In this document: positions 6,770-39,700 of the stretch, piece after piece
Layout: the number at the start of each line of letters is the position of its first letter
Position numbering within the stretch: position 1 is the stretch's first letter
Origin: Moringa oleifera
Lineage: Eukaryota > Streptophyta > Magnoliopsida > Brassicales > Moringaceae
Direction of reading: 5' to 3'
NCBI GenBank assembly: GCA_021397835.1
Contig: JAJFZO010000566.1
Span: forward strand, 6,510,001-6,574,000
DNA: 64,000 nucleotides
The notes under the pieces: model-generated
What the model was told of the DNA's origin: nothing
Database searches by the model: none
The model's input: the letters and a program-made list of their open reading frames with translations, nothing else
Translations under genes and position numbers: made by a program

Positions 6770-7176
6770 ACCTTTTTATAGCTGTGATTACAATATTCAG
6801 AGGTGGCACTAGAAAGTTGATTCTTTTACTTGATACTAAATTTAAATTTGATTATTCCATACAATGATTTTCTTATTTTGATATTCTTTTCTATGGAATT
6901 TAAGTTACATCCAACCTTCCCAACCATAAAAGAAGGAGAATAGCATTTATCTTTTAGGATTAGCTCATTATGAGATCCTCACTTTCTAATGTGTATGGTA
7001 TAGATTACTGAGGAGGTTCTAACTACAATAGCTCTTTAGGAAACTATTAAGAAACTTGAGCAAGTAACTAAAAGGTTGGTTAAATGTGTTGATTATGTTA
7101 GAGCAGCTATTATTAAGTATCTTTACAGCATGGTATTGATAAATATTATTTTTTAGAGCTCAATTTTTGATTGCAG
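6770..7176 (+). pseudogene. ACC1 unit 1: exon A tail and exon B
   Basis: Only the 3' part of exon A survives (about 6770-6816, ending CACTAGAAAG); the array boundary cuts it. Exon B is 7004-7176 after the acceptor TATAG. It reads TEEVLT..ALxETIKKLEQVTKRL and CVDYVRAAIIKYLYSM, with a stop after AL and a frameshift after YLYSM. The donor CAG|GTATGC is intact. Confidence 0.85.
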
Positions 7177-7526
7177 GTATGCTTTATTGGTTGTGTCCTC
7201 AATCGTAAACTCCTTTTCATACTCATTAAAGTTCCATTATCACGCAGCCTTTTAATTTTCTATTTGAATTATTTCTTCATTACATAATGTTTCATTTCAT
7301 GTACTAAAGAAAGTAACAGTAGCAGTATAGTAGTAGTAGTTTGGATAAAGTAGTAGTTTAAATGGAATAGCAGTAGTAGTTTAGATTAATTAGCAATAGT
7401 AGTATGAGTTTACATGGAGTAGCAGTAACAATAGTTGTTTGATGGAGTAGCAGTCGCAGAAGCTATTTTGATAAATTAGCAATTTAAATTTGTATCGTAT
7501 TTTCTAATTAGAGTCGACATCTATAG

Positions 7527-7598
7527 GTTCAGCTACTTTATGATCATTATGAAAATGTTGCAGCTTTGAACAGCTATATCTTGAGGAAGCACCAAAAG
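7527..7598 (+). pseudogene. ACC1 unit 2, exon A, open frame
   Basis: The acceptor CTATAG and 24 open codons are intact: VQLLYDHYENVAAL followed by NSYILRKHQK. An in-frame loss of nine bases relative to sister copies removes three residues. Its partner exon B lies at 14680-14853, because the CACTA element 7654-14543 landed in the intron between them. Confidence 0.88.
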
Positions 7599-7653
7599 GT
7601 TGATTCTTTTTTCTAATAGTAAATTTAGATTTGGTGACTCTGTATAATGTTTA

Positions 7654-7945
7654 CATTACTACAAATAAAAATTTTAATCACATTTAAAAATGACTTTTAA
7701 TGACAGTTGTAAAACTATCATTTTGGCTCATGTCATTAAAAAGGGGCCTTTAATGACAGTTCTATAATAGAGGCCTTTAACGACAGTTTTAATAGAATTG
7801 TCATTAAAGAAAAGGCCTTTAATGATAGTTATATTAGAACTGTCATTAAAAAGGACCCCTTTTAACGATAGTTATTATAGAACTGTCATTAAAAAGGTTC
7901 CCCTTTAATGACAGTTCTATTAGAACTGTCATTAAGGGTATATAT
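7654..7945. repeat. Left terminus and subterminal repeats of the CACTA element
   Basis: After the terminus, the motif TTTAATGACAGTT and its complement AACTGTCATTAAA alternate about every 35-40 bp. They form imperfect hairpins, for example TTTAATGACAGTTCTAT paired with AGAACTGTCATTAA at about 7902-7934. Such clustered motifs are where the element's DNA-binding protein is expected to bind in En/Spm-type transposons. Confidence 0.85.
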
Positions 7946-8779
7946 TTTTTTATTAATTTCAAAATAAATACAAAATTTTTATATTCAAATTATCCAAAAC
8001 CTACATATATAAAATTCTTCATCTCTTGCACGTCAACCATATAGATCAATACAATTATTCACAATATGCAACTAAAATTTTCTCCATCAAAATTAAATTA
8101 CAATATGTAAATATGACTCTTCAATTAAACTTAGTCAATACATATAAGTACATAATTATCAAATACAATAATTACAGTTTTTTTTTTATACGCTTCAATG
8201 AAACAACTATACTATCTTTTTTCCTTCAACATAATTACACAAACACTTCAATAAAGAGAACTTTTTCCTAATATACACTTCAATACCATTCTCATTAAAA
8301 CCATCATTACTTCTTTCATATTTAAAAACACTCAAAATAATCCAATCCATAAAAGTAATAAAAGATGAACAAAAAAAAAAATTTGATGTCATAATTGAAC
8401 TCCATATGTATAATACATGAGTTTAAATATACCTTATCATACACAATCCTAAAATTCAACTATATAAATTCAATGATTTTCATGTGTACAAAAATCTTCA
8501 AGGTTCAACTTTCTAATATGGCATTCCAAAGAATTTGTCAAACCTCCTTTCTAACTTCATCAATATCCAATTGGTTGTAAGTATCTATGTCCATTAACTA
8601 TATTTATAAAAAAAAAAAAAAGAAAGATTTAGTCTAATTAAAACTTTTAGTAAGCACATCAATTAATTACTGAAATATTTACATAAGTAAATGCTTAAAA
8701 AATTTCATAATATAATATCCACACTCAGTATTTGAAGACTGATATGAACACTGCATTAAAAATTTTTAATTATTATATT
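7946..8779. other. AT-rich interior of the CACTA element, no gene seen
   Basis: I recognise no product here. Open frames at 8026-8271, 8207-8392 and 8395-8580 are low-complexity readings of AT-rich DNA. The stretch could be the 3' flank or introns of the minus-strand Ulp1-like relic. Confidence 0.4.
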
Positions 8780-9260
8780 TTACAAAATAAATAAAACTAA
8801 CATCACATATAGGTTTAAATATACACACCCTAGCAGGAATACTCCTAGGAATGCACCTATTGCTTGATTCTTTGATAACTTAGAATAATTTAAAAGAGCT
8901 GCCGATAAAAAATAATCAATATTCTTGAGAGTAAAAAAAAAATACGTACTAACATAAATGAAAATATTTTCACTTACGTGGACATAAGTTGATCTAGTTC
9001 TTAACAAGAACCATGGTTCAAAGGATTAAAAATACTGTACACAAAATTACGAAGCTCGACAACCACCAACATCCAATGCTGCCTATATAATGAAAAATAA
9101 ATGTTAAAAATATTTTGAACAAAACTATTAATAATTTTATCTAGTATTATAACTTACCTCAAGTTGTAAGGAAATATCACTATTCCTTCATCACATGGAT
9201 CTATCATTCTATTGATTAGGTGACTGGCTTGGGTGTCTATACTTATAGACATTTTATATG
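8780..9260 (-). pseudogene. Ulp1-like (C48) cysteine protease relic of the CACTA element
   Basis: Two exons on the minus strand fit the catalytic core of the Ulp1-type proteases carried by many plant CACTA and MULE elements. The first ends at 9158 with GIVIFPYNLR before a GTAAG donor. The second, 9078-8978, follows a CAG acceptor and reads HWMLVVVELRNFVYSIFNPL, the usual HW(I/M)LVVI...DPL motif with the catalytic His. The usual Asp is Asn here, and a stop follows NHGSC. Further on, near 8840, the bases still spell a C-x-GVYI-like remnant of the Cys box, interrupted by stops. Such proteases act on SUMO-like conjugates in the wider family; the role in transposons is unsettled. The assignment rests on short motifs. 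Confidence 0.6.
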
Positions 9261-10439
9261 ACAATGTTGATAGATGAGCAAATACAAAATACCTCCCCAA
9301 ACCAAATGCAACTAAATCTGTATAAAATTTACTAAAATAATGAAGAGTAAGAAAAATATAAATATGATGTAGCCAAATGATGACAAACCAATAAAAATTC
9401 AATAGACATACGTACACAATTTAAATAAATGATTAATAACTACTTAAGTACTTAATACGAACAGTTAATATTTACTTAACATCTAATTTATTAATATAAA
9501 GCATCTAGTTAACTAGTTAGTAAATTAATTAAAATTTAAATAATATTTAATTATTTACTTTACAAGCATCAAATTTATTAATTAAAATTTAAATAAATAA
9601 TTAATAATTATTTAGTTAATTAAGACATAGTCAATATTTATTTAACATCTAATTAATTACTATATAAGCAATTAACTAGCTAGTAACCTAATTAAAATTT
9701 CAATAACATTTAATTTTTTTACTTCACAAGCATCTAATTTATTAATATTAGCTAAATAAATGATTAATAACTAATTAATAAATTAATACATAGTAAATTA
9801 ATTATCATCTAATTAATTACTACATAAGTATCTAACCAGCTAATAACTAGATTAAGATTTAAATAATATTTAATGATTTATTTTATAAGCATATAATTAA
9901 TCAATTATCTATTTAAAATTTAACTGCTTATATTAATTTATATTAACTACAAAATCAATATAATTAAATTTGACAAAATATACCAATTAATCTTACCTAA
10001 AAAAACTAATTCAAACATAAATTTACCTACATCTAATATATAATTAATTTATCAAAATATAAATTCACCTAATTAATATTTAAATAATTTATCAATTAAT
10101 TTAAAAATCTTAATAATTATCAAATAATAAATGCATCAATGTATACGCATTTATACCAAATATATTGGTCCAAATATACTTATAAAAAAATATAAATTTT
10201 ATCAATTAATATAAATTCACCAAACACACTTAATAAAGAACTACTCAAAATAATATACATTCTCAATACATTTTTTAAACCAAAATTTACCAAATTAAAT
10301 CAAAATTATGAAACTTAAATTTCGTAAAAAAATTTCGAGTCTATACGAAAATATTTACATATGTTTGAATGCCAAAGATAATCAAATGGAGGGAAAAGAT
10401 GCAGTTGTTTCTTGTGAAGATTAAGACAAATGAGAAAGA
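9261..10439. repeat. AT-rich interior with about three ~165-bp tandem repeats
   Basis: The block AAATAAATGATTAATAACTA starts at 9423, in diverged form at 9591, and again at 9754. Each is followed by CATCTAATTAATTACT, AACTAGCTAGTAA and ACAAGCATCTAATTTATTAA, giving a period of about 163-167 bp over 9423-9900. The rest, to about 10380, is AT-rich DNA with TTAATTAATT-like motifs and no recognisable gene. Confidence 0.75.
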
Positions 10440-10765
10440 AGGGAGCAAGGAGAGAGCAAGTAGAAGAGGGCTAGAGAAAGGCAGTATGGCTGCTAGTAAT
10501 TTGCCTAGTTATTTCTGGATGAAGAGCAAAGAATAGAAAGTCGAAAGAGAGATAGTGTCATTGCCATACTAGCAGCTGATCTAGTTGCTTTTGAACAGAG
10601 ATCAAAGAGGAAAGGGCAAAAAAAAAGTAGTACAGCTGCCAACAGCTAGCTTAGCTACTTCTAGATGGGGAGTAAGTAGGAGAAGGGCTGGAGAAAGGCA
10701 GTACGACTGCCAGCAACTAGTCTAGGTGGTTTTGGAAAAAGAGAAAAGAGAAGAAGGATGAAGGA
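10440..10765 (+). repeat. Purine-rich repeat, three diverged copies
   Basis: The sequence GAGCAAGTAGAAGAGGGCT followed by AGAGAAAGGCAGTATGGCTGC at about 10452 recurs at about 10667 as GAGTAAGTAGGAGAAGGGCT followed by GGAGAAAGGCAGTACGACTGC. A partial copy lies around 10607 (AAAGGGCAAAAAA..CAGCTGCCAACAGCTAG). I see no open frame of significance. Confidence 0.65.
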
Positions 10766-10839
10766 GAGAGTAAAAATTACGCGCGAGGCTACTGGGGGCT
10801 TTAAAGATGAATTAAGAATCCTTAGCTTAAAGCAAGACT

Positions 10840-10945
10840 AGACAGTCTTTAATGTCAGTTCTGGCAGAACTGGCGTAGAAGGCCTCAAACTTTAATACCA
10901 GTTCTAGCAGAACTTGCGTTGAAAGCTGTAGGGCAATTGGAAATG
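10840..10945. repeat. Internal cluster of subterminal-type repeats
   Basis: CTTTAATGTCAGTTCTGGCA, GAACTGGCGTAGAAGGCC, CTTTAATACCAGTTCTAGCA and GAACTTGCGTTGAAAG are diverged versions of the element's subterminal hairpin motifs, yet lie 3.2 kb from the left end. This suggests an old internal terminus, that is, a smaller element fused to or nested in a larger one. Confidence 0.6.
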
Positions 10946-11197
10946 TTGGTTACTGCCTGGACGTGAGAATTAGGGGTAAGCCCTTTAGATCCTCAAAAGA
11001 AACCAAAGCTCTTCTCTATTTTTTCCTACCGAAAACAAAAGATCCTCTTCATGGCAAGCTCTTAAATTTCATGAGTTTCATATTCACACTCTCTGCTTAG
11101 TTTTGAATTCTTTTTAACTCCTTCAAATACCCTCACATGCATTTCCTTTCCAAAATCAGGCAATCGAAATTTAAGCATCATTCTTTAACTTTTCTCC

Positions 11198-11563
11198 ATG
11201 GAAGCGAAAACACATCTTTTATGTTCAATCCTTTTCCTCTTCTTTACTTTTCTTCATGCAAACACTCCCAAAACCTACATTGTTCAGCTCCACCCACATG
11301 GCATAACCAGCTCTTTGTATAGTAGAAAGGGTCAGTGGCATCTTTCATTTGTTCTTTAAGCTGTTTCCTTTGAGGAACACCCCTCTTCTTGTCTTTTCTA
11401 CTTTTACCATTCTGCCACTAAAGGTTTTGTAGCTCAGCTCCTTGAATCAAAGCTTGAGTTACAGAAGTTGCCTGATGTTATTGCAGTTAGACCTAATTAC
11501 AGGTCCTTAGCTCTCCATCCAGTCTTTCAGTCTTCTACTATCTATTTATTATTTGGTTTTTGA
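11198..11563 (+). pseudogene. Captured subtilase (SBT1-like) N-terminal fragment
   Basis: Subtilases are secreted serine proteases of the plant cell wall. The fragment opens with an ATG at 11198 and encodes an apparently intact signal peptide (MEAKTHLLCSILFLFF...), then the propeptide (I9) motif KTYIVQLHPHGITSS and QWHLSF. An in-frame TAA at 11357 interrupts it. The same frame continues with AVSFEEHPSS, YHSATKGFVAQLLESKLE and LPDVIAVRPN, standard propeptide features, and stops at 11561. The reading frame is otherwise unshifted over about 120 codons, so the capture is fairly recent. The mature protease domain is missing here; a short continuation with the catalytic Asp motif lies at 14290-14361, beyond the other captured genes. 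The closest match from memory is the SBT1.2/SDD1 type. Confidence 0.9.
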
Positions 11564-11639
11564 TCCCAAAGTATCAAAAAAGTAAGCACTGGAATGCTTG
11601 AGTAAGCAGCTTTGAGAGTGAAATTCCAACCGCAGCGAG

Positions 11640-11955
11640 ATCAGAACCCACCAATCGAAGAATGGGATAGAACTCTTAGTTGATAGCACCCAGGGAACTA
11701 CAACTCATTTCCTACTAGCATCATAAAGCTCAGCTTTGAATCGTGAAGCGTCGTCTCCACGAGCCACCCACAAGTATCTAACCTCACTATCACGTACTCC
11801 AACCAGTATTTGGTCCATTTGAGTACACAAAACTGAAACAAAACTCCCTAGTGAAACGTATAATATCGATCCTTTAGGTTGAGAATCCAGCCATTAGAGA
11901 TAGGAGATTCCATTGATGAGACCAGTAGTTGCAGGTGGTTCATCATTTATGAGTG
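11640..11955 (-). pseudogene. Captured UGT87-like glycosyltransferase, middle part
   Basis: UDP-sugar glycosyltransferases of this family decorate small metabolites. Reading right to left, this fragment gives EPPATTGLINGISYL, then after a stop WLDSQPKGSILYVSLGSFVS, TQMDQILVGVRDSEVRYLWV and ARGDDASRFKAEL. That is the region before the PSPG sugar-donor box in UGT87A enzymes. A frameshift follows; in another frame HSSIGGF, the start of the PSPG box, is visible, and then the homology ends. The upstream part of the same gene lies at 13340-13642 on the same strand, about 1.4 kb away, with unrelated captured exons between. Confidence 0.87.
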
Positions 11956-12316
11956 TTGAGTAAGGTTGACAAAGAATTTCCTGTGGGCTATTGGCACAAC
12001 TTTTGAACCTCAGTTTGGATATTATAGAAGAATGATGTCGAAGGTTAACTCATTCATAATGCTAATTCAGGATTTTTACGATGTTTATGGTACTTGGGAT
12101 GAACTCATGCTATTCACAGAAGCTATTAAGAGGCTCTAAATGATTTTTAACATGACTATTGAAATAAGTTATTATGAACAATTGATTCGAATCAAATTGA
12201 TCCTGCTCTCACATGTTATAAGTTATTACGAATAAATGTTTTCCTTATTTTAGGGAATTTATGCACGAATTATACAGAGAACTATCTTATTCATTGTTAG
12301 TGCATGTAAATAGCAG
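11956..12316. other. Spacer inside captured UGT87-like fragment
   Basis: I see no recognisable coding sequence. It may include intron of the UGT gene on one side and the 5' intron of the captured uS11 exon on the other, because the latter begins at a proper acceptor (TAGCAG). Confidence 0.35.
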
Positions 12317-12446
12317 GAACTTGGCATTACTGTGCTTCTTATCAAACTTTGAGCTATTGGAGGGAACAAGACCAACACTCCTAGTCCAGGTGCCCAGTCT
12401 GTACTTAAAGCCCTGGCCCGTTTAGGCATGAAAATTGGTCGAATAG
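12317..12446 (+). pseudogene. Captured exon of cytosolic ribosomal protein uS11 (RPS14)
   Basis: uS11 is a component of the 40S ribosomal platform. The exon starts after the acceptor TAGCAG and reads ELGITVLLIKL, stop, [20 protein letters not shown] and [11 protein letters not shown]. It ends at a donor (ATAG|GTATTG), one residue before the usual GRIED motif. The parent protein has ATGGNKT and [21 protein letters not shown], so identity is obvious. Retained splice sites show that genomic DNA, not mRNA, was captured. One nonsense codon (TGA for Arg) breaks it. Confidence 0.93.
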
Positions 12447-12810
12447 GTATTGCTCATCCTTATTTGTGGCTACTTCTTTTTATTATTTTTAAAGTTTGAC
12501 TATATACCCAATCAGGACTGAAACCCAATTGACTTTTATTACTTCTAGCACTCCAATGCTTCATCTTTAGTTTCACTAACTTGAAATTTTCTTGTTTTCT
12601 TTTTGCAAATCATGCATTTTGGGCATTGTAGTTTTGAATTTGGCTAGCATGATACTGGTATTATGATTTAAGAATATTAGCTTCAAGAGATTGCAAGATA
12701 TTATTTATCCTTGTTACACGTTCTCTTATATATATCCTTATCTTTTGACATTTTGAAGTTTTGCAATTCATAGATAGAATTCTTGTGCTAAAATATGCAT
12801 ATTAGAAATC
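12447..12810. other. Intron-like sequence between captured uS11 and terpene synthase exons
   Basis: T-rich, intron-like sequence. The first part could be the uS11 intron following the donor at 12447; the last part could be the intron before the terpene synthase exon. No coding signal is seen. Confidence 0.4.
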
Positions 12811-13322
12811 TAGATGGGATGTTGTTCATGCCATGGAGGAACTTCTAGATTATATGAAGATGTGTTTTCTTGGTCTATACAACACTATCAATAAGATAGC
12901 ATTCATTGTCTTCAAGAGAAAAGGATCAGATGGTGTTGTGCTTTACCTAAAGAAAGCTATAAATTCTTTTTCTAAATTTATGTCCTTGTTTTTCATGGAT
13001 TCCTTTAAACAGCTTTGCTATATGAAATTTGTTAGGATTAACTTCCTATAGCATGTGGACCTCTTCAGTAGATAGACTTATGTAAATCATATCTATAAGA
13101 GGCCAAGTGGTATTACAAACGATACATTCCGAACCTACAGGAATACATCTACAATGCATGGATTTCCATATTAGGAGCACTTATACTAAACCACACCTAT
13201 GTTTTGATTACAAATCCAATAACAGATGAAGCATTAAAATGCTTAAATGAATATCCTAACTTCATTCATCAATCAGCAATGATTATTCACCTCCTAAATA
13301 ACTTTGGTACTTCAACAGTATG
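12811..13322 (+). pseudogene. Captured terpene synthase C-terminal exons
   Basis: Terpene synthases make mono- or sesquiterpenes from prenyl diphosphates. The first exon reads RWDVVHAMEELLDYMKMCFL, GLYNTINKIAF and GSDGVVLYLKKA. An intron follows, and the second exon (from about 13105) reads KWYYKRYIPNLQEYIYNAWI, SILGALILNHTYVLITNPIT and DEALKCLNEYPNFIHQSAMI. The frame ends with NNFGTSTV and a stop at 13320. The end corresponds to the (L)(N/D)D...GTS part of the second metal-binding (NSE/DTE) motif, but both acidic positions are Asn. The style fits the TPS-a/TPS-b clades. The DDxxD motif lies upstream and was not captured. Confidence 0.92.
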
Positions 13323-13339
13323 AGATTTAATATTTTCGC

Positions 13340-13642
13340 ACCTTAAGATATCGAAAGGCCCACTGTAGGTAAACGAAGAAATCGAATTTCACTCTCAGAG
13401 TGTTGATTACTTGGGACTCAAGCTCGTAAAACAGAAGTGAAGAGAAGATAACTTGCTCTAAACAACAATGGCATGCATTCTAACGCTCTATCCAGCAGTT
13501 CTTTCTCAAAGAAGATCATTGGAAAATTTGCTAATCTTGTTAGAAGAACTCCAAGAATGTAGTTAATCATTTCCTTTTTAGGATCTAAAACCATATATAA
13601 CCAGAACGATGTTACTAAGCAAAAAACTCTTTTTTTTTTCAT
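13340..13642 (-). pseudogene. Captured UGT87-like glycosyltransferase, upstream part
   Basis: An ATG-initiated frame from 13642 leftwards reads LTRLANFPMIFFEKELLDRA, LECMPLLFRASYLLFTSVL and, after a frameshift near 13420, ESQVINTLRVKFDF when the sister frame is followed. This fits the UGT87 region (SPTRLADLP..ELPGARSLLFTTVYELE..) that lies directly before the segment at 11640-11955. The order is right for one minus-strand gene split by an insertion. The first 20 codons of the frame show no recognisable match. Confidence 0.8.
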
Positions 13643-14289
13643 CGAATAAATGGTGAAAGAATATAGGAAAATGACACCGCTGCAAGTTCACACTAAGTTG
13701 CTGAAGAGCCAGTACTGTTCATAGGCAAGCAAAGTTTCAACTCGCAATCCATTTCTATAGAATAGAGAAAGGTTATGCAGGCAGGTGTTCATTTATAGTT
13801 GCTAGTTGAGGCCATGGGGATGGAAAGAAAGATGAATACTTTAATTGGCCTTGGCCAAAGATGAAGACAAAGTTGTGTAGGTAAACAATACCTAGAGATA
13901 ACTCTCTCTAAGCCTCGGAGGAAGCTCTACATGGGTCTTTGTTTAGCCTTCTCCTCTGCTTTGACTCTGGCTGATGTGCCTCCTCCAGTTTCAATTAATG
14001 AAGACAAACTAATTTAAGGGAAGGCATTCTTCCTAGCAGAAGCCTATTCCTTGTGCTCAAGTCAATTAATCAAAGAAATAAGATTCAAAGAAGGAGATGA
14101 AAAAGCGAGAATTTGTTATTGACCAAGGCAGAGGGATTTCTTACAGAGAAGGCAAGTGGGTAGTGACATATAAAGAATATTCTGGGATAACACACCACTT
14201 TTAGTTCATGGACTGAGGCTTATGAGGAGAAAAGGCTCTGGCAAGACAAATTTTTAAGAGTTAGCCCCATAAGAGGAAGTGCTTGGTAT
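13643..14289. other. Unassigned interior of the CACTA element
   Basis: No protein family is recognised. Short open stretches exist, for example around 13900-14000 (KLYMGLCLAFSSALTLADVP), but none matches a family I know. Parts may be UGT or subtilase sequence too decayed to recognise, or further captured DNA. Confidence 0.35.
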
Positions 14290-14361
14290 AAGTCTACTTT
14301 TTATCATGAAAGCAGCATCATTGGAGTACTTGACACTGGAGTTTACTTGGAGGTGTAAAAA
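14290..14361 (+). pseudogene. Captured subtilase, catalytic Asp segment
   Basis: The frame reads KSTFYHESSIIGVLDTGVYL. This is the IIGVLDTGVWPE motif around the catalytic Asp of plant subtilases. In the protein it follows the propeptide fragment at 11198-11563 by only a few dozen residues. The two pieces are therefore probably one captured gene split by later insertions of about 2.7 kb. Confidence 0.85.
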
Positions 14362-14369
14362 GCCCCAAC

Positions 14370-14543
14370 TAGTTTTTTTTTAAAGCCTTTAATGCTAGTT
14401 ATTCAAGAACTGGTCTTAAAGCTCTAAGGATGGCCTTTTAACGCCAGTTAAATAATAAATGGCATTAAAAACCTTATTTTTAATGATAATTTTGGAAGAG
14501 TGTCATTAAATAATTGTCACTTATTACAATTTTTGTAATAGTA
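14370..14543. repeat. Right terminus and subterminal repeats of the CACTA element
   Basis: Motifs GCCTTTAATGCTAGTTATTC, TTTTAACGCCAGTTAAATAA and TTTTTAATGATAATTTTGGA with complementary partners mirror the left subterminal repeats. The element ends with TTTTTGTAATAGTA, followed by the TTA target copy at 14544-14546. Confidence 0.82.
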
Positions 14544-14679
14544 TTATCTTATTCCAATATACTTTTTGATGCAATTCAAGTTACATTTCACCTTCCCAAC
14601 CATAAAAAAAGATGAATAATATTTATCTTTTAGGAGTATTTTATTAAAAGATCCTTACTTTTTCATTTGTTCGGCATTG

Positions 14680-14853
14680 GTTAGTAAAGAGGGTCTGATT
14701 ACTATGGCTCCTTTAGAAACTCTCAAGAAACTTAAGCAAGCAGCTAGAAGGTTGAGTAAATGTGTTGATTATATTTGAGCAGCTACTATTGAGTATTTTT
14801 ACAGCATCAATACTGCCAAATACTATTTTTTAGAACTCAATCTTTAATTGTAG
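14680..14853 (+). pseudogene. ACC1 unit 2, exon B
   Basis: Full-length 174 nt. It reads VSKEGLITMAPLETLKKLKQ and AARRLSKCVDYI, then a TGA, AATIEYFYSINTAKYYFLEL and two terminal stops. The donor TAG|GTATGC is intact. The AARRLxKxVxYxxAATxEYLYS pattern identifies the biotin carboxylase domain. Its exon A partner is at 7527. Confidence 0.92.
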
Positions 14854-15239
14854 GTATGCTTCACTGGTTGTGCCGTCTGTTATAAACTCCTTGTCATACT
14901 CATAAAGGTTTCATTGTCATTCAGTCTTTTAGTTTTCTATTTGAATTACTTCGTTGTTACATAATCCGTTATTTCATGTACTAAATACATCAGTAGTAAC
15001 ACTAGCAATATAGTAGTAGCTAGTTTGGATAGAGTAGCAGTTTAAATAGAGTGGCATTAGTAGTTTGGATAAAGTAGCAGTTTAAATATAGTGGCATTAG
15101 TAGTTTGGATAGAGCAGCAATTTAAATTGATTGGCAATAACAGTAGTAGTTTATATGGAATAGCAACAACAGTAATAGTTTTAATGGAGTAGTAGTTTAG
15201 ATTTGTGTCGCATTTTCTAGTTAGAGTTAACATCTATGG

Positions 15240-15679
15240 CTTTAGCTACTTTGTGATCATTACGAAAATATTGTAGCTTTGACTAGCAGTGATTACAATA
15301 TTTTGAGGAGGCACCAAAAGGTTGATTATTTTTCCTGATATTAAATTTAGATTTTGTTATTATACATAATGTTTTTCTTATTTCAATATTCCTTTGTATG
15401 GAATTCAAGTTACATCTCACATTCCTAAGAAGAAAAGAAGAATAACATTTATATTTTAAGAGTATTTTATTAAGAGATCCTTACTTTTTAATGTGTTTGG
15501 TATGGGTTAGTGAGGAGGGTCTAATTACCATGGCTTCTTTAAAAACTATTAACGAACTTAAGCAAGCAACTAGAAGGTTAGCTAAATGTGTTGATTATAT
15601 TAAAACAACCACTGTTGAATATCTTTGCAACATGAATACCAACAAACACAATTTTTTAAAGCTTAATCTTTAATTACAA
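15240..15679 (+). pseudogene. ACC1 unit 3: exons A and B, exon B open
   Basis: Exon A is 15240-15320 (81 nt, stop at codon 2, then LLCDHYENIVALTS and ILRRHQK). Exon B is 15506-15679 and is open from its first codon through VSEEGLITMASLKTINELKQ, ATRRLAKCVDYIKTTTVEYL and NTNKHNFLKLNL, stopping where the parent has Arg. It is the best preserved coding copy, but its donor has decayed to CAATTATGC. Confidence 0.92.
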
Positions 15680-16046
15680 TTATGCTTCACTTGTTGTGCC
15701 CTCAGTTATAAACTCTTTGTCCTGCTCATGAAGGTTTCATTGTCATACGGCATTTTAGTTTTCTATTTGAATTACTTTTCATTACGTAATGCTTTATTTC
15801 ATGTACTAAATGGAGTAGGAATGGCAGTATAATAGTAGTAGTTTGGATAGAGTAGCAATTTAAATGAAGTAACAGTACTAGTTTGGATAAAGTAGCAAGT
15901 TAAATCGGTTAACAATAGTAGTAAGAGTTTATTTAAAATAGTAGCAATAGTAGTAGTTTTGATGGAATAGTAATAGTAATACCAGTTTTGATAAAGTAAC
16001 AGTTTAGATTTGTATCGTATTTTCTAATTAAAGACAACATTTATAG

Positions 16047-16490
16047 GTTTAGCTACTTTGTGATCATTATGAAAACATGATAGATTTGAATACTCATGAC
16101 TACAGTATCTCGAGGAAGTACTAGATGATTGATTTTTTTTTTCTTGGTATTGAATTTAGATTTAGTTATTACGTACCATGTTTTTCTTATTTCTATATTT
16201 CTTTCTATGTCATTCAAGTTACATATTACATTCCTAACCATAAAAGAAAAAGAATAACTTTTATCTTTCAGGAGTATTTTATCAAGAGATTCTTACTTTT
16301 TCATATGTTTGGTATACATTAAGGAATAGGGTCTGATTCATGTGGCTTCTATGGCAATTATGAGAAACTTGAGCAAGCAACAAGAAGGTTAGTTGAATGT
16401 GTTGATTATGTTAAAACAGCTATTATTGAGTATCTTTGTAGTATAGATACCACAAAATGCTATTTTCAAGAGTTCAATCTTCGATTACAG
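16047..16490 (+). pseudogene. ACC1 unit 4: exons A and B
   Basis: Exon A is 16047-16125, two bases short and without a normal donor. Exon B is 16317-16490 (EQATRRLVECVDYVKTAIIE and YLCSIDTTKCYFQEFNLRL). The acceptor is degraded and the donor GT is AT, so this unit could not splice normally. Confidence 0.88.
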
Positions 16491-16797
16491 ATATGCTTCA
16501 CTGGTTATGCCCTTAGTTGTAGACTCCTTGCCATACTCAATAAGGTTTTATTATCATACAGTCTTTTAGTTTTCTGTTTGAATTATTTTTTTGTTACACA
16601 ATACTTTATTTCATTTACTAAATGGAGTAGCACTAGTAGTATAGTAGTAGCAATTTGGATAGAGTGGTAGTTTAAATGGATTAGTAATTGCATGTAAGAG
16701 TTTACATGGAGTAGTTTCATGGAGTAGTAGTAATAACAATGTTGATGGAGTAGTAATTTAGATATATTGTATTTTTCAATTAGAGTTAGCTATATAG

Positions 16798-17144
16798 GTT
16801 CAACTACTTTGTGATCATTAAGGAAATGTTACAGCTTTGAACAGGCATCAATGCAATATCCCGAAGAGGCATAAAAAGTTTGATTCTTGTTACTTACGCT
16901 GAATATCCATGGATACTTTTTTAGGAGTGTTTTATTAAGAGATACTTACCTTTTAATGTGTTTGATATAGGTTAGTGAGGAAGGTCTAATTACTATGGAT
17001 TTTCTTGAAAAAACTAAGAATCTTAACCAAGTTGTTAAAAGGTTGGCTAAATGTGTTAATTATGTTAAAGCAACTATTGTTGAGTATCTTTAGAGTATAG
17101 ACACTAACAGACACTATTTTCTAGAGCTTAATGTTTGATTCCAA
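16798..17144 (+). pseudogene. ACC1 unit 5 with shortened intron
   Basis: Exon A is 16798-16878, full length with a stop at codon 8. It keeps GN where most copies read EN, closer to the functional protein. The intron between A and B is only 92 bp, about half the usual length, because the CTTATTTCAATATTCC and TTCAAGTTACATCTCAC blocks are deleted. Exon B is 16971-17144 with the acceptor GATATAG intact. Confidence 0.88.
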
Positions 17145-17517
17145 GTATGCTTCATTGGTTGGGCCCTTAGTTGTAGATTCTTTATCATACTCATTAAGGT
17201 TTCGTTATCATTATCCTTTTAATTTTCTATTTGAATTATTTCTTCATTGCATAATTCTTTATTTGATGTACTAAATGTAGCAGTAGTATAGTAGTAGCAA
17301 TTTAAATAAAGAAGCAATAGTAATATAGAAGTAGTAATGTAGCAGTAGCAGTTTGGATAATGTAGCAGTTTAGAATGGATTGTTAAGACTAGGAGGAGTT
17401 TACATGGAGTAGTAGTAGTAGTTGTTGTTTTCATGGAGGAGTAGTAGGAGTAGTAGTTTTGACAGAGTAGTAGTTTTGATCTATATGGTATTTTCAAATT
17501 AGAGTCAGCATATATAG

Positions 17518-17956
17518 GTTTAGCTACTTTGTGATCATTATAAAAATGTTGCAGCTTTGAAAAGCCATGATTAGTATCCTAAAAAGGCACTAGAAGGCTG
17601 ATTATTTTTCTTGACACTGAATATAGATTTGGTTATTGCGTAGAATGTTTTTCTTATGTCAATATTCTTTTCTATGGAATTCAAGTTACATCTCACATTC
17701 CTAACCATAAAAAGAGAAGAATAATAATTATTTTTTAGGAATATTTTATTAAGAGATCCTCATCTTTTAATGTGTCTAGTAGAGGTTAGTGAAGAGCATC
17801 TAATTACAGTGACTGCTTTGAAAACTGTCAAGAAACTTAAGCAAGTAATGAGGAGGCTGGCTAAATGTATTAATTATGTTGGGTAGCTACTGTTGAGTAT
17901 CTTTACAATGTGATAATGATGAATACTATTTTTTAGAGCTCAATCTTCGATTGCAG
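17518..17956 (+). pseudogene. ACC1 unit 6
   Basis: Exon A is 17518-17596 with a 2-nt loss. Exon B is 17785-17956, with KKLKQVMRRLAKCINYV, a stop, and ATVEYLYNV before a frameshift. The end LNLRLQ is perfectly preserved, although the donor reads GTTTCC. Confidence 0.88.
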
Positions 17957-18292
17957 GTTTCCTTCATTGTTTGTGCCCTCAGTTGTAGACTTCTTGTCAT
18001 ACTTATCAAGGTTTCATTATCATGCAGCCTTTTAATGTTCTATTTGAATTATTTCTTCGTTACATAATGCTTTATTTCATGTACTAATGAAGTAGCAGTA
18101 ATAGTTTGGATTAAGTTATAGTTTAAATAGAGTAGTAGTAGTATTGTAGTAGCAATTTGGTAGTAGTAACAATATAGCGGCAATGGTTTAATAAGGTAAC
18201 AATTTAGATGGATTACCAAAAGCAGTCAGAGTTTGCATTAAAGTTGTAATAACAAAAGCAATTTTAACGGAGTAGTAATTTAGATTTTGTAT

Positions 18293-18732
18293 CCTACTTT
18301 GTGATCATTATGGAAATATTGTAGCTTTGAATAGCCATGACTGTAGTATCTCCAGGAGGCACCAGAAGGTGGATTATTATTCATGATACTGAATTTATAT
18401 TTAGTTGCTACGTACAATTTTTTTTTTCTTATTTTTATATTCTTTTCTATGGAATTCAAGTTGCATCTCAGCTTCCCAACCATTAAAGGAGAATAATGGC
18501 ATTTATCTTTTAGGAGTACTTTATTAATAGATCCTTACTTTTTAATATGTCTGGTATATGTTAATGAGGAGGGTCTAATCACTATGACTCCTCTAGAAAC
18601 TATCAAGAAACCTAAGCAAGTAACTAGAAGGTGGCTAAATGTGTTGATTATGTTGGAGCAACTATTGTTGAGTATTTTTATAGCATGAATATCGATGAAC
18701 ACTATTTTCGAGAACACAATCTTTGATTACAA
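18293..18732 (+). pseudogene. ACC1 unit 7, exon A truncated at its 5' end
   Basis: The intron tail, the acceptor and the first codons of exon A are deleted; it starts at LLCDHYGNIVAL (18293-18368). Exon B is 18560-18732 and has lost one base near RRW. It retains DYVGATIVEYFYSMN. The glycine in YVGA agrees with functional ACC1. Confidence 0.87.
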
Positions 18733-19246
18733 GTATGCTTCACTACTTATTCCCTCAGTTGTAAATTATTTGTCATTCTCATTAAGGTTTTGTTGCCATG
18801 TAGCCTTTTAATTTTCCATTTCAATTATTTCTTCATTACATATTACTTTATTTCATGTACTAAATAAAGTAACAGTTTGGATAAAGTAACAATTTAAATG
18901 AAGTAACTGTGATAATATAGCAATAGTAGTTTAGATAAAGTAGCCAATTAGATGGATTAGAAATAGTAGAAAAAGTTCGCATAAAGTAGCCACAGTTGTT
19001 TAGATAGAGTAACTGTTTAGATGGATTAGAGATAGCAGTAAGAGTTTACATAAAGTAATAGTGGCAATATAGCAGTAGTAGTTTGGATAGAGTAGCTATT
19101 TAGATGGATTAGAAATAGTAGTAGGAGTTTACATAGAGTAGCAGTAGCAACAGCAGTTTTGATAGAGTAGTAATAGCAACAGCAGTTTTGATGGAGTAGC
19201 AATTTAGATCTGAATCCTATTTTCTAATTAAAGTAAGCTTCTATAG

Positions 19247-19690
19247 GTTTAGCTACTTTGTGATCATTATGAAAATATTGCATCTTTGAATAGCCATGAT
19301 TGCATTATCTCGATGAGGCATCAGAAGGTGATTTTTTTTTTTTATTGATAATGAATTTATATTGGTTATTGCATACAATTGTTTTCTTATTTTAGTATTC
19401 CTTTTTAAGGAATTCAAGTTACATCTCACTTGCTTGATCATAAAAGGAGCATAATAACATTTATCTTTTAAGAATGTTTTAGTAAAAGATCCTTACTTTT
19501 TAATATGCTTAGTGTAGGTTAGTTAGAGGGTCTAATCACTGTGACTCCTTTGGAAACTGTTAAGAAACTTGAGCAAGCAACTAGAAGGTTGACAAAATGT
19601 GTTGATTATGTTGGAGCAACTATTTTTGAGTATTTTCGCAGCGCGAAAAGTGATGCATATTATTTTCGAGAGCTCAATCATCGATTGTAG
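19247..19690 (+). pseudogene. ACC1 unit 8
   Basis: Exon A is 19247-19326 (acceptor CTATAG, LLCDHYENIASLNSHDCIIS). Exon B is 19518-19690 with TVKKLEQATRRLTKCVDYVG and ATIFEYFRS, one base lost near the start. The donor TAG|GTATGC is intact. Confidence 0.88.
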
Positions 19691-20004
19691 GTATGCTTCA
19701 CTTCTTGTTCCCTCAGCTATAGAATACTTATCATACTCATTAAGGTTTCATTGTCATGTAGCCTTTTAACTTTTCATTTGAATTATTTTCATTATATAAT
19801 GCTTTATTTCATGTATTAAATAGAGTAGTAGTAGTATAGTAGTAACTGTTTAAATAGATTAATAGTAGTAGTATTACAGTAGAAGTTTACATGGAATAGT
19901 AGCAGCAGAAGCTTTATTGATCGGGCAGCAATAGCAGTAGCAGTTTTGATAAAGTTGGAGTTTAGATCTGTATTGTATTTTCTAATTAGAGTCAACATCT
20001 GTAA

Positions 20005-20442
20005 GTGTAGCAACTTTATGATCATTATAAAATTGTTACAGCTTTGATTCGTAGTAATTGTTATACCTTGAGGAGGCACTAAAAGGTTGATTCTTTTTCT
20101 TTATATTGAATTTAAATTTAGTTATTAAGTACAATGTTTTCTTATTTCAATATTTCTTTCTATGAAATTCAAGTTGTAACTCACATTATCAACCATAAAA
20201 GGAGAAATTGCACTTATCTTTTAAAAATATTTTATGAAACAATCCTTACCTTTTAATGTGTTTATTATAGGCTAGTGACGAAGGTGTAATCACTGGGGCA
20301 CCTTAGAAACCATCAAGAAACTTGAACAAGTAGCTAAAGGTTCGCTAAATGCATTGATTATGTTAGAGCAGCTATCATTGAGTACCTTTACAACATGGAT
20401 ATCAGCGAATACATTTTTTGAGAGCTCAATTTTCGATTACAA
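20005..20442 (+). pseudogene. ACC1 unit 9
   Basis: Exon A is 20005-20085 (acceptor mutated to GTAA). Exon B is 20271-20442 (acceptor ATTATAG intact) with TIKKLEQVA and, after a one-base loss, DYVRAAIIEYLYNMD. The donor GC replaces GT. Confidence 0.87.
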
Positions 20443-20795
20443 GCATGCTTCATTAGTTATTCCCTCAATTGTAGACTTCTTGTCATACTCATTAAAGTTT
20501 TATTATCATGCAGCCTTTTAAGTTTCTCCTTGAATTATTTCTTCATTACATAATGCTTTATTTCATGTATTAAACGGAGTAATGATAGTAATATAGCAAT
20601 AGTAGTTTGGATAAAGTAACAGTTTAAATAGAGTAGTAGTAGCAGTATAGTAGTAGTAATTCGGATGGAGTAGTAATTTCGATGGACTAGTAGTAGCAGT
20701 AAGTGTTTACATAAAGTAGTAGTAGTAGTAGCAATTTTGGTGGAGTAGCAATTTAGATTTGTATTATATTTTCTAATTAGAGTCAACATCTATAA

Positions 20796-21211
20796 GTTCA
20801 ACTACTTTGTAATTGTCGAAATGTTGCAGCTTTGAATAACGGGGATTGTAGTATCCTAAGGAAGCATCAGAAGGTTGATTCTTTTTATTGATAAGAAATT
20901 TAGATTTCATTTTTTCACTCATTGTTTTTCTTATTTCAATATTCCTTTCTATGGAGTTCAAGTTACATCTCACCCTCTTAACCATAAAAGGAAAACAATA
21001 ACATTTATCTTTTAGGTGTATTTCATTAAAAGATCCTTACTTTTTAATATGTCTAGTATAGGTCATTGTGACCCTTCTGGAAACTGTGAAGAAATTTAAG
21101 CTTGCAGCTAGATGGTTAGCTAAATGTGTTGATTATGTTGGAGCTATTGAGTATCTTCACAGCATACACACCAAAAAATACTATTTTTTAGAGCTCTATC
21201 CTTGATTGCAA
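20796..21211 (+). pseudogene. ACC1 unit 10, the one linked to downstream ACC1 exons
   Basis: Exon A is 20796-20873 (NVAALNNGDCSI region, with short losses). Exon B is 21062-21211, with internal losses near VGA. It reads TVKKFKLAARWLAKCVDYVG and IEYLHSIHTKKYYFLELYP; the Pro at the end (LELYP) recalls LELNP of functional ACC1 and differs from the LELNL of most copies. It is followed by further ACC1 exons from 21628, so it may be the unit closest to the original gene. Confidence 0.88.
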
Positions 21212-21627
21212 GTATACATCACTGATTGTGCCTCCATTGTAACCTCCTTGTCATACTCATTAAGGTTTCATTGACGGGCAGCCTTTTGCATTCTATTTAA
21301 ATTATTTTTTCATTATAAGACACTTTATTTCGTGCACTAATCAGTGCTCATAATAAGTTTACTTGGGATGAAAGGAAGGTTATAGAAGTATAGTTATGAA
21401 CTTTGAGACAATTAGGAAGCTTTATAATTTTTATGTGCCATTATTTATATTCGTGTCTATGTCTTTGTTGATGTTATTTTTAACTTCAAATATGGATAAT
21501 TAGGTTGATATATTTGCACCTTATTTTGTTGTGGTCTTAGCTTAAATATATTTATATTTAAGATAGTTAGCTTGTTAACTTATTGACATGTTTAATGTTA
21601 ATGAACATTAGCATGTTTTGGATATAA

Positions 21628-22259
21628 GTGGAGCATCCAGTTATAGAGTCGATTGCTAAAGTAAACCTTCTAGTTGCCTAACTAATAGTAAGGCAGGATA
21701 TTACTCTCTGAAAAATTCCTATTATGATAATAATGTTCATTAAACTTTTTTTCTTAGTCATTCAATGTTGTATCTCATAATTTATGCCTATGTTTAATAA
21801 AAAATAAGGCTATTTTTCTAATATGGAACATGATGGAAGGTATGATTCTTGGAGGAAAACATTAACTGCTGCTACTTTTTTTAATTTTGACAAGGTAGAG
21901 AGTACAAAGCCTAAAGGTCATTATGTAGTTGTTCGTGTCATAAGTGAATATTTGAATGATGGTTTTAAAGTCATCAATGGGAAAGTATAGGTAAATTACC
22001 AAGTTTCATGAGCATTCATAGTTAAAGTATTTTATTCCTCATTTTGGGAACTTGAGTTGAGCTACATAATTTTATGAATTTTATAGGGGCTAAATTTTAA
22101 GAGTAAACCAAGTATATGGGCTTACAAAGGTAACTTACTTTTTCGTTTTTCTTATCAAAACTATGTGATGATAGTGTGGTCCATTTTCTAATTGAATGAT
22201 TGAACATCTTATTTGTTGTTTTGAATGAGGCATTCATGAATTCTCAGATTCTTAGTTTG
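21628..22259 (+). pseudogene. ACC1 downstream exons (biotin carboxylase domain, end)
   Basis: Four exon relics continue the protein after exon B in the right order. From 21628: VEHPVIESIAKVNLLVA and, after stops, KIP, for the VEHPVTEWIAEINLPAAQ motif. From about 21805 to 21990: MEHDGRYDSWRKTLTAATFF, DKVESTKPKGHYVVVRVISE and DGFKVINGKV, with a stop at the last codon before GTAAAT. From 22087 to 22129: LNFKSKPSIWAY, with an acceptor TTATAG and a donor GTAACT. From about 22225 to 22259: IHEFSDS, stop, F, with donor GTAAGC. The next expected exon (HVFAFGESRA..) is absent. The parent enzyme makes cytosolic malonyl-CoA. Confidence 0.93.
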
Positions 22260-22645
22260 GTAAGCATAAGCTACTACTTTAAAGCATGTTGATTTGAATC
22301 ACTTGATAGGAACTCGTACTACCTTTTTATTTATTTACAAAAATATTTTATTCAAAATAAATATTAAAATGATGATAAACAAAAAGGATTAATGAGAATA
22401 ATGACAATAGTAATAGTAGTATAGTAGTAACAATAGCATTATGGCAATAGAAGTTTGGATGGATTAGCAGTAACAATAGCATTAGCAGTTTGGATAGCAT
22501 GTAGTAGCAGTATAGAAGTATAGTAGTAGTAGTTTAGGTAGATTAGTAGTAGTAGTGGCAGTTTAAATGAAGTAGTTATTGCAGTTTTGATGGAGTAGTA
22601 GTTTAGATCTATATCATATTTTTTAACTAGAGTCAACATCTAAAG

Positions 22646-23080
22646 GTTCAGCTACTCTGTGATCAATATGAAAATGTTGTAACCTTTTCATAGTTATGAT
22701 TCTAGTATGTAGAGGAGGCATCAGAAGTTGATTCTTTTTCTTGATAATGAATTTAGATTTGGTTGTATAGTGTAATGTTTTTCTTATTTCAATATTACTT
22801 GGTGCGAAATTCAAGTTACATCCCACTTTTCGAACCATAAAAGTTAAAAAATAGCATTTATCTTTTAAGAGTATTTTATGATATGATCCTTACTTTTTAA
22901 TGTGCATGGTATAGATTATTGAAGAAGGTCTAATTATTATGGTAACTATCAAGAAACTTAAGCAAGGAATTAGAAGTTGGCGAAATATGTTGATTATGAT
23001 GAAATGGCTACTGTTGAGCATCTTCATAGCATAGACACTAACGAATACTATTTCCTAGAGCTCAATCCTGTATTACTGGC
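22646..23080 (+). pseudogene. ACC1 unit 11
   Basis: Exon A is 22646-22727 with VQLLCDQYENVV and small indels. Exon B is 22915-23080, which has lost bases near MVTIKKL and reads ATVEHLHSIDTNEYYFLELN followed by P, with a decayed donor. The following intron (23081-23328) copies the one after unit 10 (21212-21500), including TTTGTAATTTTTATGTGC. Units 10 and 11 thus share a longer duplicated segment. Confidence 0.88.
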
Positions 23081-23349
23081 ATATTTCACTGATTGTGCCA
23101 TCCGTTGTAGACTCCTTGTCATATTCAGTTAGGTTTCATTATTTTATTTGAATTATTTATTCATTTTAAAATGTTTTATTGTATGCACTAATCGATACCT
23201 ACTACAGACCTATTTAAGATGAAAAGAAGGTTGTAGAAGTATATGCTCGTATTTTTAGAAGCTTTGTAATTTTTATGTGCTCGTATTTTTATTTATGTTA
23301 ACATCTTAGTAGATGATATTTCTAACTTGAGATATTTCTTCATTGAGAC

Positions 23350-38522: not shown

Positions 38523-39110
38523 TTGCGTTTTTCCTTACCTTTATTCTTGTTTGTCTTTAAATTTCTTTGCTTAAAATTTCCTATGTCATATGCTTATGAT
38601 TCAAGAAATTTAAATGTGAATATGTTACTGTCTGAAACTGATAACCTGAAATTAGAAGAGAAAGATGCATTAGAAAATCTTGATACTAAGGAATATGATG
38701 AAAACAACAAACTTCCACTGGAAATAAAAAAATAGTTATTCATGAGCAAAAACAAATCTTCCCCTATGAGGAAGAGACTAAAAAACTGAATCTAAGTACC
38801 AAAGAAGAGAAGAAAAAGGTTTAAATTGGAACATTGGTTACTCCTTTAATATGAGAAGCTTTGATCAATTTATTGAAAGAAGATGCTGACATTTTTCGTA
38901 CAAGGGCTGGGAAAAACTACTATGGAACATAAGTTGCCTTTAAAACCAGATTGCTTTCTTGTTCAACAGAAGTTATAAAGAATGAAATCGAAGATATTAT
39001 TACAAATAAAGGAAGAAGCTCAAAAACTTTTAGATGTTAGATTTATTGTGGTATTAACATATCCTGAATAAGTAACCAACATTGTATAAGTCCATAAGAA
39101 AAATGATAGG
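38523..39110 (+). pseudogene. gypsy protease-RT linker and RT start
   Basis: An acidic linker (LSETDNLKLEEKDALENLDT) is followed, with frame changes, by HEQKQIFPYEEETKKLNLST, matching the IQPHxEPxExINLGTxE segment that precedes RT in these elements. At about 38930-39100 the sequence HKLPLKPDCFLVQQK, KIKEEAQKLLDVRFIV and YPE marks the RT N terminus (HxLPLxPxxxPVxQK). Confidence 0.82.
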
Positions 39111-39700
39111 GTACACATATGTGTGGATTATAAAGATTTAAACAGAGCAAGCTCGAAGGATAATTTCCCTCTTCCACACATTGGCATACTGGTGGATAAC
39201 ACAATTAAGTTCTCATTATTTTCATTTATAGATGGTTATTCGGGATACAACCAAATCCACATTGCTAAGAAAGAAATGGAGAAAATAATATTCACCATGA
39301 TATGGGACACGTTCTATTACAAAGTAACACCTTTTAGTTTTAAAAATGCTAGGATAACATACCAAAGAGCCATAGTCACTCTGTTCCATGATATGATGCA
39401 TAAATCTATAGAGATATATGCGGATGATATGATAGCTAAATCCAAAAAAGATAAAAAATCATGTTGAGGACTTAATAACATTCTTTGGAAGATTAAGGCA
39501 ATATAAACTCAAATTAAATCCCAATGAATACATGTTTCGAGTTAAATCAGGAAAATTATTGGGACTTATGGTTAGTGGAAAAGGGGTTCAATTAAATAAA
39601 AGTGATTCAAAATACATCACCCTCAAGAACAATCATAAAAGCACAAGGATTCTTGGGATGGATAAATTATATCTCTAGATTCATTTTGTAATTAATTAAA
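39111..39700 (+). pseudogene. gypsy reverse transcriptase
   Basis: The open part (39123-39467, 114 codons) contains MDYKDLNRASSKDNFPLPHI, FSFIDGYSGYNQIHIAKKEM, FYYKVTPFSFKNARITYQRA and IEIYADDMIAKS. The catalytic Asp in SFIDGYSG and both Asp of YADD are present. After the stop at 39465 the thumb region continues in another frame with QYKLKLNPNEYMFRVKSGKL. This is the longest uninterrupted recognisable coding segment in the window. Confidence 0.95.

Follow-up and report, generated by a model that had tools for sequence, protein, structure and literature searches.

The tandem ACC1 exon array in a Moringa oleifera contig belongs to a genome-wide repeat family that includes a young satellite

A stretch of 64,000 nucleotides from Moringa oleifera (contig JAJFZO010000566.1, positions 6,510,001 to 6,574,000), referred to here as the window, contains a series of repeated segments that resemble exons of ACC1, a plant fatty-acid gene encoding acetyl-CoA carboxylase, and the question it raises is how an internal piece of a gene came to be repeated at this locus. 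An initial annotation, made from the letters alone, described 11 diverged tandem units at 6770..23330 and read them as a local amplification of an internal ACC1 segment. Comparison of the window with itself agrees with this in number and limits: 11 head-to-tail diverged units are found at 6761-23335, with pairwise matches that are ~69-79% identical, many of them at E=0.

Each of the 11 units consists of two recognisable ACC1 exons together with intron sequence. The exon pair had been assigned to ACC1, and a tblastn search with the Arabidopsis ACC1 protein does match the window units, with E values down to 1e-19; at the nucleotide level, 11/11 units are covered by matches to this genome's own ACC1 gene, which bears out the amplification in tandem of an internal segment with its introns. 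The consensus peptide derived from the dispersed copies described below (not from the window units) matches acetyl-CoA carboxylase (ACC) chains in the PDB (E 7e-32) and the Pfam family PF02786 (E 9e-22). At the level of sequence homology, the exons are confirmed as ACC1 biotin-carboxylase exons. The annotation had correctly given the length of exon B (174 nt) and the phase of both exons (phase 0), but not the length of exon A (SRHLEVQLL...RRHQK), which is 96 nt in the gene rather than 81 nt, so that an exon pair would add 90 codons and not the 85 supposed. Nor is the unit exactly an exon pair with its introns, as had been thought; it comprises ~600 bp of ACC1 (gene positions 3962-4579) and 145-343 bp of a TAG/CAG minisatellite, here called “M”, whose segments have a TAG+CAG density of 89-145 per kb, compared to 29 for the window (Table 1). 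Unit 10 extends through four further ACC1 exons (21628-22264), and unit 2 is interrupted by a 6.9-kb transposon-like insert. The array is not a whole-gene duplication, as originally stated. Nothing upstream of the intron that precedes exon A is included in the amplified piece. No RNA family matched the window at gathering scores.

Table 1. Features of the array in the window, with gene positions referring to the ACC1 gene
Feature	Position	Strand	Details
Unit 1, ACC1 part (gene 4028-4579, starts within exon A)	6761..7307	+	exon B 7004-7176
M separating units 1 and 2	7308..7487	+	133 TAG+CAG per kb vs window mean 29
Unit 2, left half (gene 3963-4135)	7488..7652	+	exon A remnant 7512-7601
Unrelated dispersed transposon-like element, later insertion splitting unit 2	7653..14543	.	
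Unit 2, right half (gene 4134-4579)	14544..14984	+	exon B 14681-14842
M	14985..15199	+	
Unit 3 (gene 3962-4579)	15200..15809	+	matched parts: exon A 15247-15320, exon B 15507-15678
M	15810..16006	+	
Unit 4 (gene 3962-4572)	16007..16614	+	exon A 16038-16116, exon B 16328-16490
M	16615..16764	+	
Unit 5 (gene 3968-4579; A-B intron partly deleted)	16765..17274	+	exon A 16793-16878, exon B 16972-17143
M	17275..17477	+	
Unit 6 (gene 3962-4579)	17478..18087	+	exon A 17503-17596, exon B 17786-17956
M	18092..18294	+	
Unit 7 (gene 4009-4579)	18295..18863	+	exon A 18295-18368, exon B 18561-18731
Longest M segment	18864..19206	+	343 bp, containing its own 69-bp tandem repeat
Unit 8 (gene 3962-4579)	19207..19819	+	exon A 19237-19327, exon B 19526-19686
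M	19820..19964	+	
Unit 9 (gene 3962-4579)	19965..20573	+	exon A 20013-20085, exon B 20273-20441
M	20574..20755	+	
Unit 10, long form (gene 3962-5568)	20756..22319	+	
Unit 10 exons, matched parts	A 20781-20873, B 21067-21210, C 21628-21720, D 21802-21990, E 22093-22125, F 22207-22264	+	
Short spacer (< ~90 bp; similar in dispersed copies), then M	22320..22605	+	
Unit 11 (gene 3962-4749)	22606..23335	+	exon A 22631-22727, exon B 22915-23076

The window units show no sign of coding constraint. Stop codons occur in 11/11 units, and among window pairs the exons are not less diverged than the introns (0.250 vs 0.211), with divergences of 0.276, 0.228 and 0.246 at the successive codon positions. The keeping of splice sites after coding decay, noted at first, is unremarkable: 29/42 splice dinucleotides are kept in the window (69%), compared to 2232/3480 other intron dinucleotides (64%), which is little or nothing over background; over all 52 aligned copies, which are not independent of one another, the figures are 142/195 (73%) and 10666/15991 (67%). 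The array presumably has no ACC1 function and would never have lengthened the ACC1 protein; the proposed addition of biotin carboxylase codons is inapplicable, because the array lies outside the ACC1 gene, which is on contig C3. With stops in every unit and the gene on another contig, the array does not have the character of an exon duplication within a working gene, and it is not a processed pseudogene, from which introns would have been removed, since the units retain intron sequence (in unit 5 with a part deleted).

The exon matches of the gene on C3 span residues 3-2238 of the Arabidopsis query, which is nearly the whole protein. Among the best 120 listed of 7988 protein candidates scored, which come from many rosids, identity to the ACC1 query reaches 90% at most. 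The multicopy stretch is ~2.0 kb of this gene, from position 3962 to 5944, and contains six exons with their introns, while the 1600 bp directly upstream of the breakpoint are single-copy (1 match, 1/1 candidate scored). Apart from the gene's own locus, no homology upstream of gene position 3961 was found in 22 sequences (the window and L022-L042); on the right, 11 other matches all lie between gene position 5572, where the query starts, and 5944 (12/12 candidates scored), and no copy exceeds 3962-5944 in the searches made. On the left, the copies all break off at a single point, 25-26 bp ahead of exon A, and are fused there to the TAG/CAG-rich M; some copies without M begin at gene position 4119 (L044, L047). 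M was examined for occurrence free of ACC1 at two places only, and ACC1 adjoined it at both. The idea that M is an expanded form of the ACC1 intron upstream of the breakpoint is unsupported, as shuffled sequences reach the score in 7-49% of cases for seven M segments.

This junction is not confined to the window. A 40-nt pattern representing it has 20 matches on 12 contigs (reversed control 0), a word spanning it has 224 (reversed control 0), a word from the intron has 411 (control 3), and a word for the junction in the young satellite described below has 294 (control 0), the match sets of these three words overlapping. The view that the repeat is local rather than a dispersed family must consequently be given up; of the two features that had been named as speaking against it, dispersal across the genome was found and transposon ends were not. 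The ACC1-derived family numbers several hundred copies in the genome, including a young satellite with a 2.1-kb repeat. Copies occur dispersed, joined to pieces of other genes (for example a G-box-binding bZIP gene), in old arrays with three unit types, and in the young satellite of ~2.1 kb. A peptide in one flank, which by its look we take to be an AAA-ATPase, matched 0 families in a Pfam scan. The search for dispersed copies gave at least 64 matches when 40 of 637 first-look places were scored. For the young satellite, where 38 of 336 were scored, 52 rows on 11 contigs span 93% or more of the query, including the query itself; the other 51 are 84-98% identical to it, with 46/51 at 90-93%. 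Among the first 100 places listed for its junction word, steps of ~2.1 kb appear, for instance five in a row on C113 and eight on C115. Long head-to-tail arrays, as expected of a satellite, are formed by both the young satellite and the 11 units of the window, while homogenised monomers are found in the former and not in the latter (~69-79%). Since the ACC1 copies belong to a family that includes this satellite, a piece of a gene has turned into satellite DNA. The clusters fall on several short contigs, which gives no more than a hint of a heterochromatic or centromeric location. Those on C522 and C523 are situated at contig ends.

M is present in every array examined, and the arrays share its junction with ACC1 and differ in their right ends. 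A right end at ~4572-4579 joined to M is found in the window, at C25:7.09 Mb, and on C523 and C522; one at ~5541-5568, followed by a short spacer and M, characterizes the young 2.1-kb satellite and dimers; and ends at 4180 and 4101 occur on C21 and C125, respectively, where the array units contain additional other sequence. A tree was computed for 53 rows from 64 located pieces, after window unit 2 had been joined from its halves and L025, a near-duplicate, had been dropped along with pieces that match <=300 query positions. In this tree 3/3 units from C25:7.09 Mb pair with window units 3, 4 and 6 in the same order (support 100/99 or better), which identifies that locus as a block duplicate of a portion of the window array. 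The 10 units from C523 form one clade (100/100). The young monomer is not grouped with the window units and stands beside some dispersed copies with modest support (89/82), which makes the window array a side branch and not its demonstrated parent.

It is probable that a captured ACC1 fragment became a satellite and a dispersed repeat family, of which the window is an old, dead branch. The fragment is joined at its left end, at one point, to M, which may have served as a source of repeated homology or as a slippage-prone stretch; units might then have been joined at M by unequal exchange, template switching or rolling-circle copying, in which case one and the same junction would have given rise to arrays on more than one occasion. 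M may thus have had a role in array growth, though in the C21 and C125 arrays, with their additional sequence, the joints may or may not fall inside it. The originally proposed amplification in or beside a resident ACC1 gene would explain the tandem order and the phase-0 exons, but the same junction recurs in hundreds of matches elsewhere and the upstream part of ACC1 is single-copy and on a different contig; the genome searches rule out local duplication, and we give it almost no credence. A transposon of the Helitron or Pack-MULE type could instead have captured ACC1 and other gene pieces and spread them, with tandem arrays arising later. Both kinds of element capture gene fragments with introns at the DNA level and give rise to dispersed copies, as seen here; the retention of introns speaks for capture as DNA, and the common left end, the wide dispersal, the position of copies inside or next to fragments of other genes, and a further fragment, X, common to longer copies beyond gene 5929-5944, fit such an origin. 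Helitrons have 5' TC and 3' CTRR ends with a hairpin, insert at AT and make no target-site duplication. However, the terminal inverted repeats expected of TIR transposons such as Pack-MULEs and CACTA elements were not found around the ACC1 copies, none longer than 14 nt occurring between the flanks at 17 loci (flanks up to 1.2 kb; 15 with none and 2 with one of 13-14 nt), and the right ends of the copies vary (gene 4544, 4702, 4878, 5188, 5277, 5568, 5944), in contrast to the insert at 7653, where 32 rows besides itself begin at query positions 1-5. Capture by a transposon is possible but doubtful.

Extrachromosomal circles, by which ACC1-M units would be excised, copied by rolling circle and reinserted singly or as short arrays cut anywhere, are an unlikely route. 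They would account for the permuted units at C25:6.82 Mb (L038) and on C100 (L040), which run from gene 4132-4134 to 4572-4579 and then into M (L038 continuing past M to gene 3962-3996), for the start of the window array within exon A at gene 4028, and for the presence, by eye, of M at both ends of the ACC1 units inserted in the bZIP gene and on either side on C115. Breakage of a linear array also gives permuted ends, however, most dispersed copies examined are unpermuted, and no circles were observed. Retroposition of an antisense transcript, in which M would be the tail that marks the fixed end while the usual 5' truncation would account for the variable one, agrees with the single fixed end and the variable other ends, but it is improbable given that the M tails are long irregular minisatellites, that a target-site duplication was not seen by eye at L036, and that the longer copies have fragment X in common. 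If the captured-fragment explanation is extended, it can be proposed, tentatively, that this multi-exon piece of a housekeeping gene is a major satellite of the plant, possibly centromeric or pericentromeric, and that one capture beside M created a recombination-prone module that seeded many loci independently, with donor gene, dispersed intermediates, dead arrays and homogeneous satellite coexisting.

Related cases are known in outline. A satellite of New World monkeys, described as having a single-copy eutherian intron as its origin (Valeri et al. 2018, as cited in PMC7004042), is likewise an instance of DNA from a gene present once becoming a tandem satellite; as summarized there, it differs from the present case, in which the source spans several exons and introns, the genome is that of a plant, and the donor gene persists alongside dispersed copies, old arrays and a young satellite. 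Plant satellites reported to derive from short tandem repeats in the 3' UTRs of Ogre retrotransposons (Vondrak et al., PMC7004042) resemble it, as far as that account goes, in that one source yields many arrays and a short tandem repeat in the source is involved in array birth, as reported there and as we infer here; unlike in those satellites, the amplified body is an ACC1 fragment rather than a retrotransposon, and M lies within the unit instead of forming the whole monomer. The EPSPS amplification of Amaranthus palmeri, outlined in PMC5240378 as associated with putative Helitrons and with repeats in both tandem and inverted arrangement, also multiplied the region of a plant metabolic gene across the genome, but it involves a working gene that confers resistance, whereas here an old gene piece has no visible function. 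No report of an ACC1-derived satellite was found in the literature searched, judged by titles and abstract openings. The birth of a satellite is usually unreadable, the source sequence being gone. In the present family it survives as a conserved gene with a single-copy upstream part, and the breakpoints can be placed to a few bases. A known outgroup is thereby available for dating the succession of events from capture through fusion to M, dispersal and the birth of arrays to decay and homogenisation. Should arrays have arisen repeatedly from the single junction between M and ACC1, the family would constitute a natural test of minisatellite-driven array birth. Caution is also required in annotation, as many ACC1-like exon pieces of this genome are not genes.

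The insert that splits unit 2 is, by its look, presumably CACTA-like, and contains a peptide that we take to be subtilase-like, for which a Pfam scan returned 0 families. Its first 900 bp give at least 131 genomic matches (40/863 candidates scored), and it appears from its sharply shared start to behave as a plain transposon, unlike the ACC1-M copies.

Self-comparison of the window resolves the stretch from about 6760 to 23335 into 11 head-to-tail units which are about 69-79% alike and whose protein match is the biotin carboxylase of ACC; the consensus peptide of the dispersed copies, which does not draw on the window units, matches the same enzyme. Comparison with this genome's own ACC1 gene, numbered on the reverse complement of locus L021, identifies gene positions 3962-4579 as the source of most units, with the departures given in the table. 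Neighbouring units are separated by M, a degenerate minisatellite of 145-343 bp in which TAG and CAG together occur 89-145 times per kb (ten segments), as against 29 in the window.

Units and other features in the window (contig JAJFZO010000566.1) and on contig C21
Feature	Position	Description
Unit 1		Starts inside exon A (vs ACC1 gene)
Unit 2		Interrupted by 6.9-kb insert (vs ACC1 gene)
Unit 5		Internal deletion (vs ACC1 gene)
Unit 7		Begins at gene 4009 (vs ACC1 gene)
Unit 10		Extends to gene 5568, taking in exons C-F (vs ACC1 gene)
Unit 11		Extends to gene 4749 (vs ACC1 gene)
Dispersed element, 6.9 kb	window 7653-14543	Palindromic subterminal repeats (TTTAATGACAGTT...)
Retroelement remnant	window 39090-39467	Reverse transcriptase; Pfam RVT_1, E 2e-8
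Degenerate minisatellite array	window 42788-43936	43/86-bp repeat
Degenerate minisatellite, large region	window 52863-62070	'AAATGGGCCTA' type; both orientations; strong GC skew
Locus L050	C21:56500-61900	Array of ~1.1-kb units, ACC1 ending ~4180

The donor lies at C3:6652000-6669600, where exon matches to an Arabidopsis ACC1 sequence cover almost all of the protein (residues 3-2238 of that sequence). The 1600 bp immediately upstream of the amplified part have one genomic match, the gene itself (the one candidate was scored), and the number of ACC1 genes is read from this single match. Gene positions 3962-5571 have at least 64 matches among the 40 scored of 637 first-look candidates, and the sequence from 5572 onward has 12 (all 12 candidates scored), namely the gene and 11 places which all end at 5929-5944. 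These limits on both sides define an amplified piece of about 1983 bp, whose start lies 25 bp before exon A and whose end falls in an intron after the sixth exon.

The left limit is a shared junction. When the entire gene region served as query, nothing upstream of gene 3961 was matched in the window or in loci L022-L042, and the copies that have a left end begin mostly at 3961-3968, others at 3973-3976, preceded by M where the gene carries other sequence. A 40-nt junction pattern, searched with up to three mismatches, has 20 matches on 12 contigs (reversed control, 0), a 24-nt junction pattern has 224 (control 0), and a 24-nt word of the A-B intron has 411, the gene included (control 3); these three sets of matches overlap. 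In some copies the left end differs, lying at gene position 4119 or near 4132, and in the lineage of L044, L047 and L048 a shared stretch, Z, directly precedes ACC1 4119 or 5598 without M. M itself as query gives at least 48 matches (40 of 41 candidates scored), and ACC1 was present at both of the two M places inspected beyond the known loci. A derivation of M from the ACC1 intron just before the breakpoint was tested and is not supported.

The family also includes a young satellite, whose monomer of about 2.1 kb consists of M and ACC1 3962-5541 with an internal gap. This monomer gives at least 72 matches with 38 of 336 candidates scored; among these, 52 rows on 11 contigs, including the query, span at least 93% of it, and the other 51 are 84-98% identical to it (46 of them 90-93%). 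A junction word from the satellite has 294 matches (control 0), which, if each is counted as a full 2.1-kb monomer, gives an estimated total of about 0.6 Mb.

Dispersed copies adjoin various other sequences: examples lie inside a duplicated G-box-binding bZIP gene or beside a FAD-binding gene, presumably cytokinin-dehydrogenase-like, in two segments 87% alike, and some are followed by fragment X (about 590 bp), which also occurs on C626, where the preceding 545 bp have no ACC1 match. Two further arrays are, like that of the window, old and of the same type. The three units of C25:7.09 Mb that entered the tree pair with window units 3, 4 and 6, in that order (support 100/99 or better), which indicates a block copy; the 10 units of C523:92-101 kb in the tree form one clade (100/100). 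C522 near its end and C523 near its start carry ACC1-bearing clusters whose match figures are identical, so the assembly there may be duplicated or gapped. The arrays on C21 and C125 have different right ends. The C21 array has five ACC1 pieces spaced at about 1.1 kb, all ending at gene 4177-4181 and starting at 3962-3973 in four cases and at 4018 in one; the 24-nt intron word recurs in steps of about 4.5 kb on C21 and C583, which suggests a higher-order repeat. On C125, in the one unit read, ACC1 3962-4101 is followed by the start of X; units there are spaced 0.8-1.0 kb apart.

Inner branches near the root of the tree are very short, with many weakly supported forks, and end branches are long, with a median of 0.07 and values of up to 0.18 in the window, a pattern that fits an early burst followed by independent decay. 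The young monomer has a long branch to itself (0.21), beside some dispersed copies (modest support, 89/82) and apart from the window units. Dispersed copies and the window (at 22319) both hold dimers joined at gene 5566-5568, with a short spacer and then M after the joint. The monomer joint of the young satellite looks similar, so the joint seems old.

The array types share M and the M-ACC1 joint and differ at the right end; M would thus be where arrays were built, through repeated mispairing or template switching. Extrachromosomal circles also fit, as they would account for permuted units and for copies flanked by M on both sides. At L051 (C115:45100-46500), M was seen by eye in both orientations side by side, and it flanks a short ACC1 piece at either end. 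A transposon may have been used in the first spread. None of 17 loci compared has inverted terminal repeats of more than 14 nt, whereas in the same kind of search the insert at 7653 behaves as a plain transposon, with 32 other rows beginning within its first five bases.

No observation points to a coding role. All 11 window units contain stops, and their pairwise divergence is 0.250 in exons against 0.211 in introns (0.276, 0.228 and 0.246 by codon position); splice dinucleotides are retained in 29 of 42 cases, against 2232 of 3480 for other intron dinucleotides. As in the window, the exon-intron comparison gives no sign of exon constraint in dispersed copies (0.212 and 0.184) or C523 units (0.172 and 0.148).

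Among the papers that the literature searches listed, titles and abstract openings name no ACC1-derived satellite. Satellites derived from a single-copy intron, a case which PMC7004042 cites from another study, and from short tandem repeats of retrotransposons have been published (PMC7004042; review PMC12628747).

The insert that splits unit 2 is CACTA-like by its look, and near 11199 within it a stretch not confirmed by Pfam resembles the start of a subtilisin-like protease.
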